From assembly GCA_017527495.1 (NCBI GenBank), contig JAFXPY010000002.1, forward strand, positions 1 to 64,000: DNA of 64,000 bases, given 5' to 3'. Origin of the DNA: Paludibacteraceae bacterium. GTDB taxonomy: Bacteria > Bacteroidota > Bacteroidia > Bacteroidales > Paludibacteraceae. Positions 21,033-26,950 of this stretch are shown in pieces (the stretch's first letter is position 1; the number at the start of each line of letters is the position of its first letter). The notes beneath the pieces were generated by a model. It made no database searches. It was not told where the DNA came from and was given only the letters and a program-made list of their open reading frames with translations. The translations under genes and the position numbers were made by a program.

Positions 21033-22745
21033 ATGAAAACCTTTAAAGAACTAAAAAGATTGCTCAAAAATGATACATCAGCTCTGCCTACGCTAAAAGT
21101 ATCATTATTAGGAGATACTGCAACACAATTTCTTGCGACAGCTCTAAGAGGAACTGCTATAGATAGGAAATATGATTTTGATCTTTTCGAAGCAGAGTAC
21201 AATCAAGTTGAGAGACAAGTTCTTGATCCAACCAGTGACCTCCATCAGCACAACGCAAAATACACAATCGTTTTTCAGTCAACACATAAATTGCTCGAAC
21301 ACTTCAGCAATCTTGCTCCCTCGCAACGCAATATAGCGGCAGAGCGCATTGATTTTGTTCGCACGCTATGCGAAACGGTTCAGGGGAAAATCATCTATTT
21401 CAACTATCCGGAAATTGACGATACTGTTTTCGGTCAGTATGCCAATCATTTAGAAGAATCATTTACATGGCAAATTCGTCAGCTTAACTATGAACTGATG
21501 AAGCTCACGCAAGAGTACCCCAATCTATTTATTTGCGACATAGCGTCGCTGCAAAACAAATATGGTCGTGATTGGATGTTTGATTCGTCGGTGTATGTAT
21601 CCACGGAGATGATTCTTTCTCTTGATGCTGTTCCCGCTGTTGCCTCGCTTGTTTTGGATATCGTTTGTGCTATTGAAGGAAAATTCAAAAAATGTCTGAT
21701 TTTGGATCTTGACAATACTCTTTGGGGCGGAGTTGTTGGAGATGATGGATGGGAAGGCATACAAGTCGGGCATGGACTTGGAATAGGAAAGGCTTTCACC
21801 GAGTTTCAAGAATGGATCAAAAAACTTCGCCAGCGTGGAATAATAATTTGCGTATGCAGCAAAAATGATGAAGATAAAGCCAAAGAACCTTTTGAAAAAA
21901 ATCCGGAGATGGTGCTCCGACTTGAAGATATTGCAGTCTTTGTGGCTAATTGGGACAACAAAGCAGACAACATACGCACAATTCAAAGCATACTCAACAT
22001 CGGTTTCGATTCAATGGTCTTTCTCGACGATAATCCTTTTGAGCGGGCTATGGTCAGAGAACATGTACCGGAAATATTAGTGCCCGAATTGCCTGAAGAT
22101 CCCGGGGATTATCTTGAGTATCTCTATTCGCTCAATTTGTTTGAGACAGCAGCGTATAGTAGTGCCGACAAAGATCGAACAAAGCAGTATCAAACAGAGG
22201 CAAAACGTGTTCAGGCTGCACAAAAATTCACCAATGAAGCTGATTTTCTAAAATCACTTGAGATGGAATCTGTTGTAGAAGGATTTACTCCCTTCAATAC
22301 ACCTCGTGTTGCACAGCTTTCACAGCGCAGCAATCAGTTTAATCTCCGAACAGTACGATACACAGAGGGAGAAATAGCCGAACTTTCGCAAAGCCAACAA
22401 CATGCTTGTTTTTCATTTACTCTTGAAGACAAATTTGGCGACAATGGGCTGATATGTGTAATCATACTTGAAAAACAAAACAAAGAAACGCTTTTTGTCA
22501 ACACATGGTTTATGTCATGCCGAGTGCTAAAACGCGGTATGGAAAACTTTACACTCAACACCATTGTTGATTATGCACGACAAAATGGTTTCAAAAAAAT
22601 TATAGGTGAGTATATTCCAACGCTGAAAAACGGCATGGTTAAGGATCACTATCCAAATCTTGGATTTCAACCCTGTGGCGACAACATGTACGAATTGCAG
22701 GTTGATAATTATAAAAACAGAGAATGTTATATTAAAAGAAAATAA
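21033..22745 (+). CDS. FkbH-like HAD-IIIC enzyme (glyceryl-ACP loader type)
   Basis: This is a 570-residue protein with the three-part FkbH layout. An N-terminal SGNH-like domain (about 20-210) carries LLGDTATQFL, with Thr where hydrolases have the catalytic Ser. The HAD phosphatase-like domain (about 215-360) has motif I DLDNTLWGG (Asp225, Asp227), CSKND and LDDNPFER. A C-terminal GNAT-like domain (about 400-565) has an FGDNGLI stretch. Characterised FkbH proteins take a glyceryl group from 1,3-bisphosphoglycerate, dephosphorylate it and load it on an acyl carrier protein; an ACP gene follows 6 nt downstream. The ATG at 21033 is preferred over TTG at 21027. The substrate here is inferred. 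Confidence 0.87.
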   Translation: MKTFKELKRLLKNDTSALPTLKVSLLGDTATQFLATALRGTAIDRKYDFDLFEAEYNQVERQVLDPTSDLHQHNAKYTIVFQSTHKLLEHFSNLAPSQRNIAAERIDFVRTLCETVQGKIIYFNYPEIDDTVFGQYANHLEESFTWQIRQLNYELMKLTQEYPNLFICDIASLQNKYGRDWMFDSSVYVSTEMILSLDAVPAVASLVLDIVCAIEGKFKKCLILDLDNTLWGGVVGDDGWEGIQVGHGLGIGKAFTEFQEWIKKLRQRGIIICVCSKNDEDKAKEPFEKNPEMVLRLEDIAVFVANWDNKADNIRTIQSILNIGFDSMVFLDDNPFERAMVREHVPEILVPELPEDPGDYLEYLYSLNLFETAAYSSADKDRTKQYQTEAKRVQAAQKFTNEADFLKSLEMESVVEGFTPFNTPRVAQLSQRSNQFNLRTVRYTEGEIAELSQSQQHACFSFTLEDKFGDNGLICVIILEKQNKETLFVNTWFMSCRVLKRGMENFTLNTIVDYARQNGFKKIIGEYIPTLKNGMVKDHYPNLGFQPCGDNMYELQVDNYKNRECYIKRK

Positions 22746-22751
22746 ATCAAT

Positions 22752-22988
22752 ATGGAACACGCACAAATTTTGGCGGAAGTGCAAGACATATTCCGCGACA
22801 TACTTGACAATGAAGACATTGTACTGCAAGACCAAACAACGGCAGATGATATTGAAGAATGGGACTCTTTGACTCATATTCAACTCATAGTGGCAATAGA
22901 AAAACATTTCAAAATCAAATTCACTTCAGCAGAGATTCTTTCATGGAATTGCGTTGGTGAAATGGTTGATTGTATAGCAAAAAAATAA
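22752..22988 (+). CDS. Acyl carrier protein
   Basis: This is a 78-residue, acidic, all-helical carrier protein. The phosphopantetheine site is in EWDSLTHIQL, with Ser39 the attachment residue. It differs from housekeeping AcpP (which has DSLD), as expected of a dedicated carrier. It lies between the FkbH-like gene and the VOC gene with 4-6 nt gaps, so it probably holds the acyl group made by FkbH and presents it to the MBOAT enzyme, as DltC does for D-alanine. Confidence 0.88.
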   Translation: MEHAQILAEVQDIFRDILDNEDIVLQDQTTADDIEEWDSLTHIQLIVAIEKHFKIKFTSAEILSWNCVGEMVDCIAKK

Positions 22989-22992
22989 ATCG

Positions 22993-23370
22993 ATGAGAGT
23001 ACATCATATTGGTATTGCATGTTCTGACATTGATGAGGCAATTGAAGAATTATCCAAGTTTCATACCATACTGAGCCGTAGCGAGACAGTGTTCGACCCT
23101 GAGCAGAATGCATCATTGTGTATGGTATCTACAGAGTTGGGATTAGATTTTGAGTTCATCAGTGGTGAGCAGGTTGCGCGCTTACTCAAAAAAGGAGTAA
23201 GCTATTATCATTTGTGCTATGAAGTGGAAAATTTAGAGGCTGTGATAGAGAAATATATAGCCGATGGAGCAATGCTTATCTCTCCGGCAAAACCTGCAGT
23301 TCTCTTTGGCGGAAAGAGAGTAGCTTTTCTTTATGTGTCATACGGATTGATTGAATTAGTTGAACAATAA
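22993..23370 (+). CDS. VOC-superfamily (glyoxalase / methylmalonyl-CoA epimerase-like) protein
   Basis: This is a 125-residue protein with the two beta-alpha-beta-beta-beta modules of the vicinal-oxygen-chelate fold. Candidate metal ligands are His5 (VHHIGIA), His73 (YYHLCYEV) and Glu121 (LIELVE), the His/His/Glu pattern seen in methylmalonyl-CoA epimerase. It probably acts on the carrier-bound or CoA-bound acyl group, for example by epimerising or tautomerising an alpha-substituted acyl chain. That role is inferred only from its position between the ACP and MBOAT genes. Confidence 0.8.
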   Translation: MRVHHIGIACSDIDEAIEELSKFHTILSRSETVFDPEQNASLCMVSTELGLDFEFISGEQVARLLKKGVSYYHLCYEVENLEAVIEKYIADGAMLISPAKPAVLFGGKRVAFLYVSYGLIELVEQ

Positions 23371-23375
23371 ATTTT

Positions 23376-24827
23376 ATGGTATTTAATTCTTTCCCTTTTG
23401 TTGTCTTTTTCATAATAGTTTTTCTCGTCTATTGGTATCCTCTGAAAGAAAAAACTAATTTGCAAAACTTCTTTTTGCTCGTAGCAAGTTGGTTTTTCTA
23501 TGGTTATGCCAATTGGAAAATATTGCCTTTACTTATTGTTTCTATCCTTATCTTCTATTTTCTTGGAAAAGCAATCAGCAAACATAAAACCGATAAGACA
23601 GGCTCGTGGCTTACAACCTTGGGTGTTGTCCTTGGTATTGGCGCATTGGTCTATTTTAAATATTTCAATTTCTTCATAGACTCTTTTGCTGCACTTTTCA
23701 ATTCGTTAGGTCTTCAAACAAACCTGCACACATTCAACATAATATTGCCTCTTGGCATAAGTTTCTATACTTTCCGTCTCTTGAGTTATATCATTGATAT
23801 CCATCGTGGAAAAGGAGAGGCAACAAATGACTTCGTGGCATTTGCCACTTATATATCTTTTTTCCCATGTTTATTGTCAGGACCTATTGATCGTCCTAAG
23901 TTTATTGCTCAATTGCAAAAAACTCGCACATTTAGCTATGCTTTTGCAGTAGATGGTAGCCGCCAAATCCTCTGGGGATTGTTCAAAAAGATGGTTATAG
24001 CCGACAATATAGCCACTTATGTAGATGCAGTTTGGGGCAATATGGACGCTCGCGGAGGGTCAACATTTGTTCTTGCTGCAATACTATACTTATTCCAAAT
24101 TTATGCCGATTTCTCAGGTTATAGCGATATGGCAATAGGTGTAGGTAAGTTGCTCTGTTTTAAGATAGCCGACAACTTCAAAGCACCACTTTTTGCACTC
24201 AATATTGCCGATTATTGGCGTCGCTGGCATATCACACTGACGCAATGGCTGACAGATTATGTCTTTATGCCCCTAAACATCAAGTTTAGAGACCTTGGCA
24301 ATGGAGGTATAATTCTTGCTATCTTGATTAATTTCGTCTTGATCGGAATGTGGCATGGAGCAGATTGGACTTTTGCTCTTTTCGGACTATATCATGGTCT
24401 GCTTTATATTCCGCTTATTCTCTCAGGTGCATTTTTCAAAAAAACAAAACTGCAAACTAATAAGTTGGGATTGCCTGTGTTGAAAGATTTTGGGCGCATC
24501 ATTCTCACTATGTCCCTTGTCGTTGTCGGGTTGATACTTTTCCGTGCCGACAATATGGGACAAGCCATTGATTACACACAGCATATTCTCCAAACAAGTC
24601 TGTTCTCTATGCCATGGCTCTATGCAAGTAATTGGTACCCAACCGTGTTTATAAGTATCATATTGCTAATAGTGTTAGAATGGTTGACTCGTAAAGAAGA
24701 GCATCCGCTGACTCTATTTGCAGGTAAGCCAATCGCTTTGCAAGTTGTAGTTTATTATGCCTTGGTAATTGCTATCTATTTCCTTCATCCACAGGCTGAA
24801 ATGACATTTATTTATTTCCAATTCTAA
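23376..24827 (+). CDS. MBOAT-family membrane O-acyltransferase (AlgI/DltB-like)
   Basis: This is a 483-residue protein with about 11-12 transmembrane helices. It has the MBOAT core: a YADFSGYSDMAIG stretch (243-255), DYWRRWHITL with His285, and the invariant catalytic His327 in GMWHGADW. AlgI and DltB move acyl groups from a cytoplasmic donor to an extracytoplasmic acceptor. Here the donor is presumably the neighbouring acyl-ACP and the acceptor a surface polysaccharide or lipid. It is 5 nt downstream of the VOC gene and is followed by two SGNH-like partners, matching the DltB-DltD and AlgI-AlgX/J arrangement. Confidence 0.9.
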   Translation: MVFNSFPFVVFFIIVFLVYWYPLKEKTNLQNFFLLVASWFFYGYANWKILPLLIVSILIFYFLGKAISKHKTDKTGSWLTTLGVVLGIGALVYFKYFNFFIDSFAALFNSLGLQTNLHTFNIILPLGISFYTFRLLSYIIDIHRGKGEATNDFVAFATYISFFPCLLSGPIDRPKFIAQLQKTRTFSYAFAVDGSRQILWGLFKKMVIADNIATYVDAVWGNMDARGGSTFVLAAILYLFQIYADFSGYSDMAIGVGKLLCFKIADNFKAPLFALNIADYWRRWHITLTQWLTDYVFMPLNIKFRDLGNGGIILAILINFVLIGMWHGADWTFALFGLYHGLLYIPLILSGAFFKKTKLQTNKLGLPVLKDFGRIILTMSLVVVGLILFRADNMGQAIDYTQHILQTSLFSMPWLYASNWYPTVFISIILLIVLEWLTRKEEHPLTLFAGKPIALQVVVYYALVIAIYFLHPQAEMTFIYFQF

Positions 24828-24841
24828 TTTGAGCAAAAAGA

Positions 24842-25894
24842 GTGAAACGATTCATAACTAATATATTGTTGTTGATTATTCCCATAATCATTATCGTTAT
24901 TCCTTATTTTGTTTTAGATCCGTTCAAGGTTTTGCGTGATTACGACTTATATGGAGCACCGGGAAATCCAATGTATGTTAATATCAATCGAACACTTATT
25001 TCGCAAAAAATGTTTGATCGCTATCGCGATTTTTATGGTTGGGACTCGTATGTTTTTGGAGGCTCACGAAGCGGGTACTACAGATACGATATATGGTCGG
25101 AACACCTTGATTCAACAGCAAGTATAGCACATTTGGACGGCTATGGTGAATCACTTTATAATATCTATCACAAAGTAAAATATATCGATGGCAAAACGCC
25201 AATCCAAAATGCTCTTTTGTGTATTGATGAGCAAGTTCTATTCAACACCGAAAATGAACTCAATCCGATAAATACAATCACTTCGGATTTAGATCCGACA
25301 TTTTCAAAATTAGATTTTCATGCCTTGTTTCTTAAAGCATATCTAACGCCGTCATTTTTTGTCGGCTACTTGCATTTCAAAATAAGCGGAAAGTTATATC
25401 CCTATATGTTAGAGAGTCAGAAACTGCAAAAGTCAATTTATTATTATGATATGACTCACAATGAGATGCTCAACGAAAACGACTTCAAAAATATACCAGA
25501 CTCTGTCTATTATAACGAAAAACGCATGGCACTATTCCCGAAAGAAAGGCCAACAGAACAGCAATACTTCAAACCTGTCGTGAAAGACGAACAAGTTCGT
25601 ATGCTGACTGAAATAAAGCAGATATTTGAGAAAAACGGTACTAATTATAAAGTAATAATCAATCCAATTTACGACCAGAAAAAACTTTGCGACTCGGATA
25701 TGCAACAACTATATGACATCTTTGGCAAAGATTTGATATATGATTATTCGGGTATAAATTTCATTACCAATGATTATCATAATTGGGCAGACACGCAACA
25801 CTTCAACAAACATTGTGCTCGTCAGATGCTCAAGTGGGTGTATGTAGATAACGCTCACACCATTCCGGAAGGTCAAACTGATTTCGATTTATAG
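24842..25894 (+). CDS. Membrane-anchored SGNH/DltD-like partner of MBOAT (copy 1)
   Basis: This is a 350-residue protein with one N-terminal anchor (about 5-25) and an extracytoplasmic domain. VFGGSRS (71-77) matches the block I nucleophile region, with Ser75. Near the C-terminus DTQH (Asp317, His320) matches the Asp-x-x-His pair of SGNH hydrolases and of AlgX/DltD proteins. No family name can be assigned with certainty, since the rest is poorly conserved. The start is GTG at 24842, 14 nt after the MBOAT stop. Such proteins usually accept the acyl group outside the membrane and pass it to the polymer. It is clearly paralogous to the following gene. Confidence 0.75.
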   Translation: MKRFITNILLLIIPIIIIVIPYFVLDPFKVLRDYDLYGAPGNPMYVNINRTLISQKMFDRYRDFYGWDSYVFGGSRSGYYRYDIWSEHLDSTASIAHLDGYGESLYNIYHKVKYIDGKTPIQNALLCIDEQVLFNTENELNPINTITSDLDPTFSKLDFHALFLKAYLTPSFFVGYLHFKISGKLYPYMLESQKLQKSIYYYDMTHNEMLNENDFKNIPDSVYYNEKRMALFPKERPTEQQYFKPVVKDEQVRMLTEIKQIFEKNGTNYKVIINPIYDQKKLCDSDMQQLYDIFGKDLIYDYSGINFITNDYHNWADTQHFNKHCARQMLKWVYVDNAHTIPEGQTDFDL

Positions 25895-25897
25895 CAC

Positions 25898-26950
25898 ATG
25901 AAGAGATTTCTAAGAAATATCATCCTGATGAGTTTGCCGGTAGTCATAATCTGCCTTGCCTATTTGATTATGGACCCATTCAAAGTGGTGTATGATTATG
26001 ATATCTATTGTGCGCCGGGTTCGCCGTCATATATAAGTATAAATAGGTCTATGGTGTCGCAAAAAATGTTCGACAAATATCATGATTTCTACCATTGGAA
26101 TTCCTATGTCTTCGGAGGGTCAAGAAGTCTTTATTTCAGACATGATATCTGGCAACCATATCTTGACGATACATGTTCTATAACCCACATGGACGGCTTT
26201 AATGAATCGCTATATAGCGTCTATCATAAGATAAAATATATTAATGGAAAAACGCCAATAGATAATGCTTTGCTCTGTATTGACGAGGATCTATTGTATA
26301 AAACTGTAAATGAATTAGAACCTCTTTCGTGCATAACACCTGATCTTGATCCTAATTTTTCGTACTTTGAACAGCAAACGTTTTATCTCAGTGCTTTTAT
26401 GCGTAAGCCCTTAGTTGCAATAGCTTACACGTACTATCGGCTTTCGGGAAAAGTCAAGCCGTAGGTTGTCAGACTTGGTGAATTCGACACAACAATACGC
26501 TATTATGACATTCGTCACAATGAAGATGTCAATATGATAGAGGTGAAGAACTTGCCTGACTCTTTGATATACAACGACACCCGCTTGGCGATGTTCTATC
26601 AGCGACCGAACTATCAGGTTTATGGACAAAAGGTGATAGACACTACCGCACTGAGAATGTTGACTGAAATAAAAGAAATATTTGAAGCAAATAACACTGA
26701 TTACAAGGTGATTATCAATCCGACCTACAATCAAAAGAAATTATCTCTTGACGACCGGCAAATCATAGAATCGCTCTTTGGTGATAGATTGTACGATTAT
26801 TCAGGAATAAATTTCATTACACAAAATTATCACAACTATTCCGACAATCTGCATTTCCGCAAGCATGTCGCACGGCAAATCTTGAAGTGGATATACGAAG
26901 ATAATGCCCACACAATACCCGAGGGACAAACTGATTTTGATAAATTCTAA
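25898..26950 (+). pseudogene. SGNH/DltD-like paralogue (copy 2) interrupted by an amber codon
   Basis: The frame opens at ATG 25898 and reads as a full-length paralogue of copy 1 (anchor, VFGGSRS with Ser, C-terminal SDNLHF Asp/His pair, final TIPEGQTDFD). It contains one in-frame TAG at 26462-26464, after SGKVKP. Copy 1 has Tyr at the aligned position (KLYPY), so TAT/TAC to TAG is the likely event. Downstream the frame is intact and well conserved to 26950, with no other lesion. The upstream fragment alone (188 residues) lacks the Asp-x-x-His pair. The break is recent, or else an error in the sequence. TAG is an ordinary stop elsewhere in this window (aroB). Confidence 0.8.

Follow-up and report, generated by a model that had tools for sequence, protein, structure and literature searches.

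In the Dlt system for the D-alanylation of teichoic acids (DltA, DltB, DltC, DltD, and DltX), D-alanine is loaded by the adenylating enzyme DltA, is held as a thioester on a carrier protein, and is passed on via DltB, an acyltransferase of the MBOAT family, the acyl-tyrosine motif FxYxxF of the microprotein DltX, and an anchored SGNH protein. In PatA, a tyrosine in a C-terminal FxYxxF motif of the MBOAT itself is acylated and the group is then transferred to the SGNH protein PatB, a step performed in Dlt by the separate DltX (PMC12148441). The O-acetylation systems AlgIJF/X and WssHIFG are likewise composed of an MBOAT with fused FxYxxF motif and a separate SGNH protein; like PatAB, they use acetyl-CoA as donor, and a carrier protein is absent from non-Dlt pathways (PMC12148441). 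FkbH proteins act together with a standalone acyl carrier protein (ACP) in glyceryl-ACP pathways (tetronates, methoxymalonyl-ACP, bryostatin-type loading). Here, we analyzed a stretch of 64,000 nucleotides (in the following "the window") from a Paludibacteraceae bacterium (contig JAFXPY010000002.1 of assembly GCA_017527495.1), in which genes for an FkbH-type loader and an ACP precede those for an MBOAT and two SGNH proteins. With a probability of roughly 0.72, this cassette encodes a Dlt-like machine for envelope acylation, in which FkbH takes the place of DltA, a shuttle fused to the MBOAT takes the place of DltX, and a glyceryl-type group is delivered to the cell surface. A surface acylation of this kind had been put forward in the original prediction, which was made from the window's sequence alone, and is supported by a gene order retained across phyla, intact catalytic residues, and a clade of carrier-linked MBOATs.

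The cassette comprises the following genes and motifs:

21033..22745, + strand: FkbH-type loader, 570 amino acids, with FkbH_N, HAD phosphatase, and C-terminal GNAT-like transferase domains
22752..22988, + strand: ACP, 78 amino acids, PP-binding family match, phosphopantetheine serine Ser39
22993..23370, + strand: VOC protein, 125 amino acids, with a metal site like that of methylmalonyl-CoA epimerase and glyoxalase; proposed C2 epimerase of glyceryl-ACP
23376..24827, + strand: MBOAT transmembrane acyltransferase, 483 amino acids, His285 and His327, match to DltB
24261..24293, + strand: MBOAT segment VFMPLNIKFRD (residues 296–306), which replaces PLGG(N/S); proposed mark of a carrier-protein donor
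24807..24824, + strand: hexapeptide FIYFQF (Tyr480) at the MBOAT C-terminus, FxYxxF-type motif, putative acyl shuttle
24842..25894, + strand: SGNH1, membrane-anchored SGNH acyltransferase, 350 amino acids, Ser75, Asp317, and His320; DltD-like
25898..26950, + strand: SGNH2, second SGNH copy, interrupted by an in-frame TAG (26462–26464)

The six genes (FkbH, ACP, VOC, MBOAT, SGNH1, SGNH2) are all located on the + strand and separated by 3–14 bp. The order, strand, and tight packing described in the original prediction were thus retained, except that the sixth gene is not intact. The family names FkbH, ACP, VOC, and MBOAT were confirmed by Pfam and NCBIfam matches. The loader reached 279 bits with FkbH_N and 302 bits with TIGR01686 (cut-off 147), and its HAD residues D225, D227, S276, K310, D332, and D333 as well as Cys496 (the cysteine of an SCR motif, codon 22518–22520) were 100% conserved among 73 aligned FkbH proteins. 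By the curated cut-off, the HAD motifs, and this cysteine, the predicted protein is a member of the FkbH family. A solved structure of an FkbH relative, BF1531 of Bacteroides fragilis (PDB 3slr), spans the first two domains, and a model of the C-terminal domain matched GNAT folds in the PDB. As judged from the family, Cys496 in this GNAT-like domain is likely the nucleophile of the transfer. The serine of the ACP predicted to carry the phosphopantetheine (Ser39, codon 22866–22868) is invariant in the alignment, and the host genome encodes one phosphopantetheinyl transferase of the ACPS family.

The MBOAT scored 65 bits with the Pfam MBOAT model and 173 bits with the DltB model TIGR04091, which is under the equivalog cut-off of 375; DltB (6bug/8jem) was its sole sequence match in the PDB, and by these scores it is classified as a relative of DltB, not as DltB itself. 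Tyr480 is invariant in the alignment of the cassette family, whose complete members end in [FY]xYxxF with a single exception (SVYKGY in L087; L numbers denote the loci compared here). The transfer to the SGNH protein should therefore follow the mechanism of DltX and PatA. SGNH1 and SGNH2 matched no Pfam or NCBIfam family, and a profile sequence search of the PDB returned nothing meaningful for the SGNH proteins. A structural model of SGNH1 (predicted template modeling score 0.82) had DltD in all of its best 11 Foldseek matches in the PDB, each of them weak (E-value 0.005 to 0.06, low TM-score). In the SGNH alignment, Ser75 and His320 are invariant and position 317 is Asp or Glu. The residues His327, Ser75, Asp317, and His320 named earlier are thus located at the positions claimed, and His327 is also invariant in its alignment. 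With the histidine, the tyrosine shuttle, and the serine and histidine of the SGNH protein, the sequences place the predicted pair in the PatAB/AlgIJ/Dlt class of transmembrane acyltransferases.

The cassette therefore combines a carrier protein, as in Dlt and unlike the non-Dlt pathways, with a fused tyrosine shuttle, as in PatAB and AlgIJF/X. Like Dlt, it has an ACP beside a DltB-related MBOAT in a conserved linkage, and both lack PLGG(N/S) in the MBOAT. It differs from Dlt in its loader, an FkbH phosphatase/transferase, in its predicted cargo, a C3 hydroxyacid, in the presence of editing enzymes, and in its hosts, which are Gram-negative and devoid of teichoic acids. A true Dlt system was ruled out by the cut-offs for DltA, DltD, and DltB: in the whole genome, no protein exceeded the DltA cut-off of TIGR01734 (best 52.6 bits) and none matched the DltD family PF04914.

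A scan of genome contigs yielded 80 loci with FkbH relatives, in which Chryseobacterium is over-represented. The order FkbH, ACP, editing genes, MBOAT, and an anchored protein of about 300 amino acids was found in Bacteroidales of the rumen and gut, Chryseobacterium, Pedobacter, Mucilaginibacter, and other Bacteroidota, and gene maps revealed the same order in Treponema, Omnitrophota, and Alphaproteobacteria. Further cassettes came from annotated plasmids of Sinorhizobium meliloti, where rkp capsule export genes adjoin the cassette, and of Rhodobacteraceae. Conserved cassettes are present in dozens of other genomes, and the comparison with relatives suggested in the original prediction showed an order kept across phyla. 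FkbH_N exceeded its cut-off in 9 of 296 evenly sampled Bacteroidota genomes, at least four of which had an MBOAT within about 5 kb; the chance expectation is about 0.003 per locus within 10 kb, and the arrangement is not due to chance.

The MBOATs linked to FkbH and ACP in Bacteroidota, including that of the window, group together in a clade of 30 sequences (SH-aLRT, a likelihood-ratio branch support, 99; 31 sequences using FastTree), and none of 34 MBOAT loci sampled without regard to FkbH contained an ACP-linked MBOAT. Between the residues corresponding to His285 and His327, MBOATs at loci without FkbH read Y-I-P-L-G-G-N/S. MBOATs neighboring FkbH mostly read F-x-P-L-x-I-x-F-R-D or a related R-type sequence, also outside the clade; DltB (6bug), which lacks PLGG(N/S) as well, reads VFMRLVIVLMRN in the aligned interval. 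PLGG(N/S) is missing from 48 of the 51 FkbH-neighboring MBOATs and present in 42 of the 44 others (43 if GLGGN is counted; Fisher's exact test, 1e-20). The last of these 44, at L109, itself adjoins an ACP. This locus (L109:1672-4652), located on a short contig on which no FkbH is visible, has the order MBOAT, SGNH1, ACP, and SDR, and its lack of PLGG(N/S) is what a carrier donor predicts. The window MBOAT has VFMPLNIKFRD instead of PLGG(N/S), and the ACP gene adjoins it. The first set of MBOATs had been picked via FkbH, and a separate check was therefore made with 29 MBOATs chosen from 295 Bacteroidales genomes by similarity to the window MBOAT alone. An ACP or FkbH was located within 1.5 kb of all six R-type but only one of 22 GG-type MBOATs, one sequence being of neither type (p = 2e-5, an optimistic value because L157 among the R-type sequences is the L016 locus of the first set and the 22 GG-type sequences are partly close relatives). 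In the DltB structure, the segment between the two histidines contacts DltC. We propose that this segment marks a carrier-protein donor, whereas PLGG(N/S) would mark MBOATs of the acetyl-CoA type. The distinct segment of MBOATs beside FkbH or ACP is new to this work.

These data bear on the possibility that the cassette consists of two unrelated modules, in which FkbH, ACP, and VOC form a glycerate-derived metabolite and the MBOAT and SGNH proteins are an ordinary pair for O-acetylation from acetyl-CoA. Carrier-less MBOAT-SGNH pairs are indeed common in Bacteroidota, homologues of SGNH1 follow such MBOATs (L105, L107, and L108), and FkbH-ACP pairs without MBOAT occur at L012, L026, L027, and L057. 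However, the FkbH-linked MBOATs form a separate clade with a different segment at the active face, the R-type segment predicts a carrier neighbor in the independent sample, and the linkage of FkbH and MBOAT has been kept over several phyla. An ordinary acetyl-CoA pair is disfavored by the MBOAT clade and the segment signature, and we consider the two-module explanation very unlikely. The same sequence evidence argues against an MBOAT that needs acetyl-CoA alone, one of three findings that the original prediction had named as contradicting it.

The sequences show the parts of the proposed envelope acylation machine, their conservation and linkage, and the MBOAT signature with its independent check; from these, we infer which acyl group is carried, in which direction each step runs, and what accepts the group. 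FkbH would take the glyceryl group of 1,3-bisphosphoglycerate from glycolysis, its HAD domain would remove the phosphate, and D-glyceryl would be transferred to the ACP. The VOC metalloprotein might then abstract the acidic C2 proton of the alpha-hydroxy thioester and return it on the opposite face, which would give L-glyceryl-ACP. The charged ACP would dock at the cytoplasmic face of the MBOAT via the FRD-type segment, in analogy to DltC on DltB, and His327 would move the acyl group onto Tyr480 of the MBOAT's own C-terminal hexapeptide. Ser75 of the membrane-anchored SGNH1 would accept the group from Tyr480 and finally donate it to an extracytoplasmic hydroxyl group, most likely on a surface glycan. 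In contrast to the FkbH-dependent polyketide pathways, the cassette lacks a polyketide synthase, and the group on the carrier is expected to exit the cell via the MBOAT/SGNH pair.

The action of VOC as C2 epimerase is the least certain of these steps. The protein matched Glyoxalase_4 and reached 35 bits with the methylmalonyl-CoA epimerase model TIGR03081 (below the cut-off of 115), its profile matched human and bacterial methylmalonyl-CoA epimerases, and the metal ligands His5, Glu54, His73, and Glu121 are conserved. The presence of a VOC protein thus agrees with the original prediction, although we hold an epimerization at C2 to be more likely than the rearrangement of the acyl group suggested there. 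In other cassettes, the editing slot between ACP and MBOAT is empty or is taken by VOC or by MaoC, to which SDR may be added. Among 53 MBOAT cassettes, VOC is present in 20 (accompanied by a methyltransferase in 12) and MaoC in 18 (in most cases alongside SDR), and 15 have neither; the MaoC, SDR, and methyltransferase assignments were confirmed by Pfam. None of these cassettes has both VOC and MaoC (p = 1.6e-5, or 0.015 after dereplication at 80% FkbH identity). The MaoC/SDR and methyltransferase partners of the known FkbH pathways resemble these editing steps. We propose D-glyceryl as the group of cassettes without editing gene, whereas those with VOC and methyltransferase probably transfer an O-methylated group. 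Cassettes with MaoC and SDR probably transfer lactyl, as chemical reasoning suggests a conversion of glyceryl-ACP, a 3-hydroxyacyl thioester, via enol-pyruvyl to lactyl-ACP.

It is possible, though less probable than not, that the same carrier-fed export via MBOAT and SGNH proteins serves another cargo in the window: D-glyceryl, in which case VOC would act in repair or as an isomerase, or a different C3 group such as lactyl. The glyoxalase/epimerase-type metal site of VOC points to no single reaction, MaoC/SDR or an empty editing slot is found in other cassettes, and the closest relatives of the window cassette (L014, L016, and L017) are devoid of VOC. A conserved metal-binding VOC protein in the slot otherwise taken by MaoC/SDR, on the contrary, speaks for a specific alteration of the group on the carrier.

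The acceptor might also be a lipid, a lipid-linked intermediate, a secreted small molecule, or a protein instead of a polysaccharide, which we regard as rather unlikely. The cassette is flanked by genes for AMP ligases, an HD receptor, an OPT transporter, an NtrC-type regulator, and FeoB, with no glycosyltransferases or other polysaccharide genes, and a member of two glycosyltransferase clusters is present in only 6 of 28 non-Chryseobacterium MBOAT loci longer than 15 kb. On the other side, the cassettes of Chryseobacterium and several rumen Bacteroidales sit among glycosyltransferases, the Sinorhizobium cassette adjoins capsular export genes, and envelope polymers are the acceptors for the characterized MBOAT/SGNH pairs (PMC12148441).

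Several observations weigh against the Dlt-like reading with a glyceryl-type cargo. Most non-Chryseobacterium cassettes, including that of the window, are located outside glycosyltransferase clusters, and the glycan acceptor is therefore a guess. The MBOATs of L056, L070, and L093 retain PLGGN despite their FkbH neighbors, and the DltD matches of the SGNH1 model are of the low significance given above. FkbH-made glyceryl-ACP feeds polyketides elsewhere, so that the product might differ here; a polyketide or tetronate pathway was rejected, as no polyketide synthase was detected among the annotated neighbors. The glutamate that we take to be the second proton-transfer residue of methylmalonyl-CoA epimerase is not conserved in the aligned cassette VOC proteins, which weakens the C2-epimerase step.

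An L-glycerate ester, in addition to acetyl substitution, is known from the exopolysaccharide gellan of Sphingomonas (PMC9737242, citing Kuo 1986). This is the type of product predicted for the cassette; the glyceryl-donor genes are not named in PMC9737242, and we found no source that names them. A search of the open-access literature, where an absence is no proof of novelty, retrieved no description of FkbH with MBOAT, capsule, or polysaccharide, of HAD-IIIC with MBOAT, or of the Sinorhizobium genes. The cassette would make glycerate and lactate ester decorations, for which no donor was identified in the sources consulted, accessible to genetics. The acyl group is predicted to come straight from glycolysis and to require no adenylating ligase, exchangeable editing genes would yield different surface groups, and the segment between the histidines offers a sequence rule to predict the donor type of an MBOAT. 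Only tentatively, cassettes of the FkbH-ACP-MBOAT-SGNH type may be the general means by which bacteria esterify their surface polymers with glyceryl, lactyl, and methylated C3 hydroxyacyl groups and may also constitute the donor route for the L-glyceryl of gellan-type polysaccharides, and the MBOAT segment may discriminate between carrier-protein and CoA donors in any genome.

The host, a Bacteroidales bacterium of gut type, has a genome of 2.47 Mb on 59 contigs, and no Rfam elements were found within the cassette region. Five homologues of SGNH1 were detected in 150 genomes of its family, each directly after an MBOAT. The TAG in SGNH2 is the only one in frame; both halves share the same frame, conserved protein sequence flanks the codon on both sides, and read-through would yield a protein with 57% identity to SGNH1. 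SGNH2 is either a recent pseudogene or the result of a sequence error, and no evidence for a recoding of TAG was obtained. At L142 (G450:C2:203000-219500), two carrier-linked MBOAT-SGNH pairs are arranged in tandem, one of which is equipped with a separate ACP but has no dedicated FkbH, and a third MBOAT-SGNH pair is located upstream. In S. meliloti RCAM1750 (L101:650-5849) and on pSymB of S. meliloti 1021 (L104), genes for an MBOAT, a protein of 409 amino acids (annotated as TonB receptor in RCAM1750), ACP, and FkbH are located beside those for calcium-binding proteins. The rkp capsular export genes follow the cassette in RCAM1750, and in strain 1021, FkbH is represented by two overlapping open reading frames. 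FkbH and ACP are accompanied by a split transketolase (N- and C-terminal halves), MaoC, and SDR or an aldo-keto reductase at L018:7475-10638, L110:6270-11158, and L024:12484-16602, which possibly form a longer or differently built acyl group. Another FkbH of the host genome, with a diverged sequence, is part of a KASIII-FkbH-ACP cluster (L113:8269-12192; G000:C49; L012/L113) with two hexapeptide acyltransferase-like genes and no MBOAT, the acyl group of which is perhaps made for a sugar.

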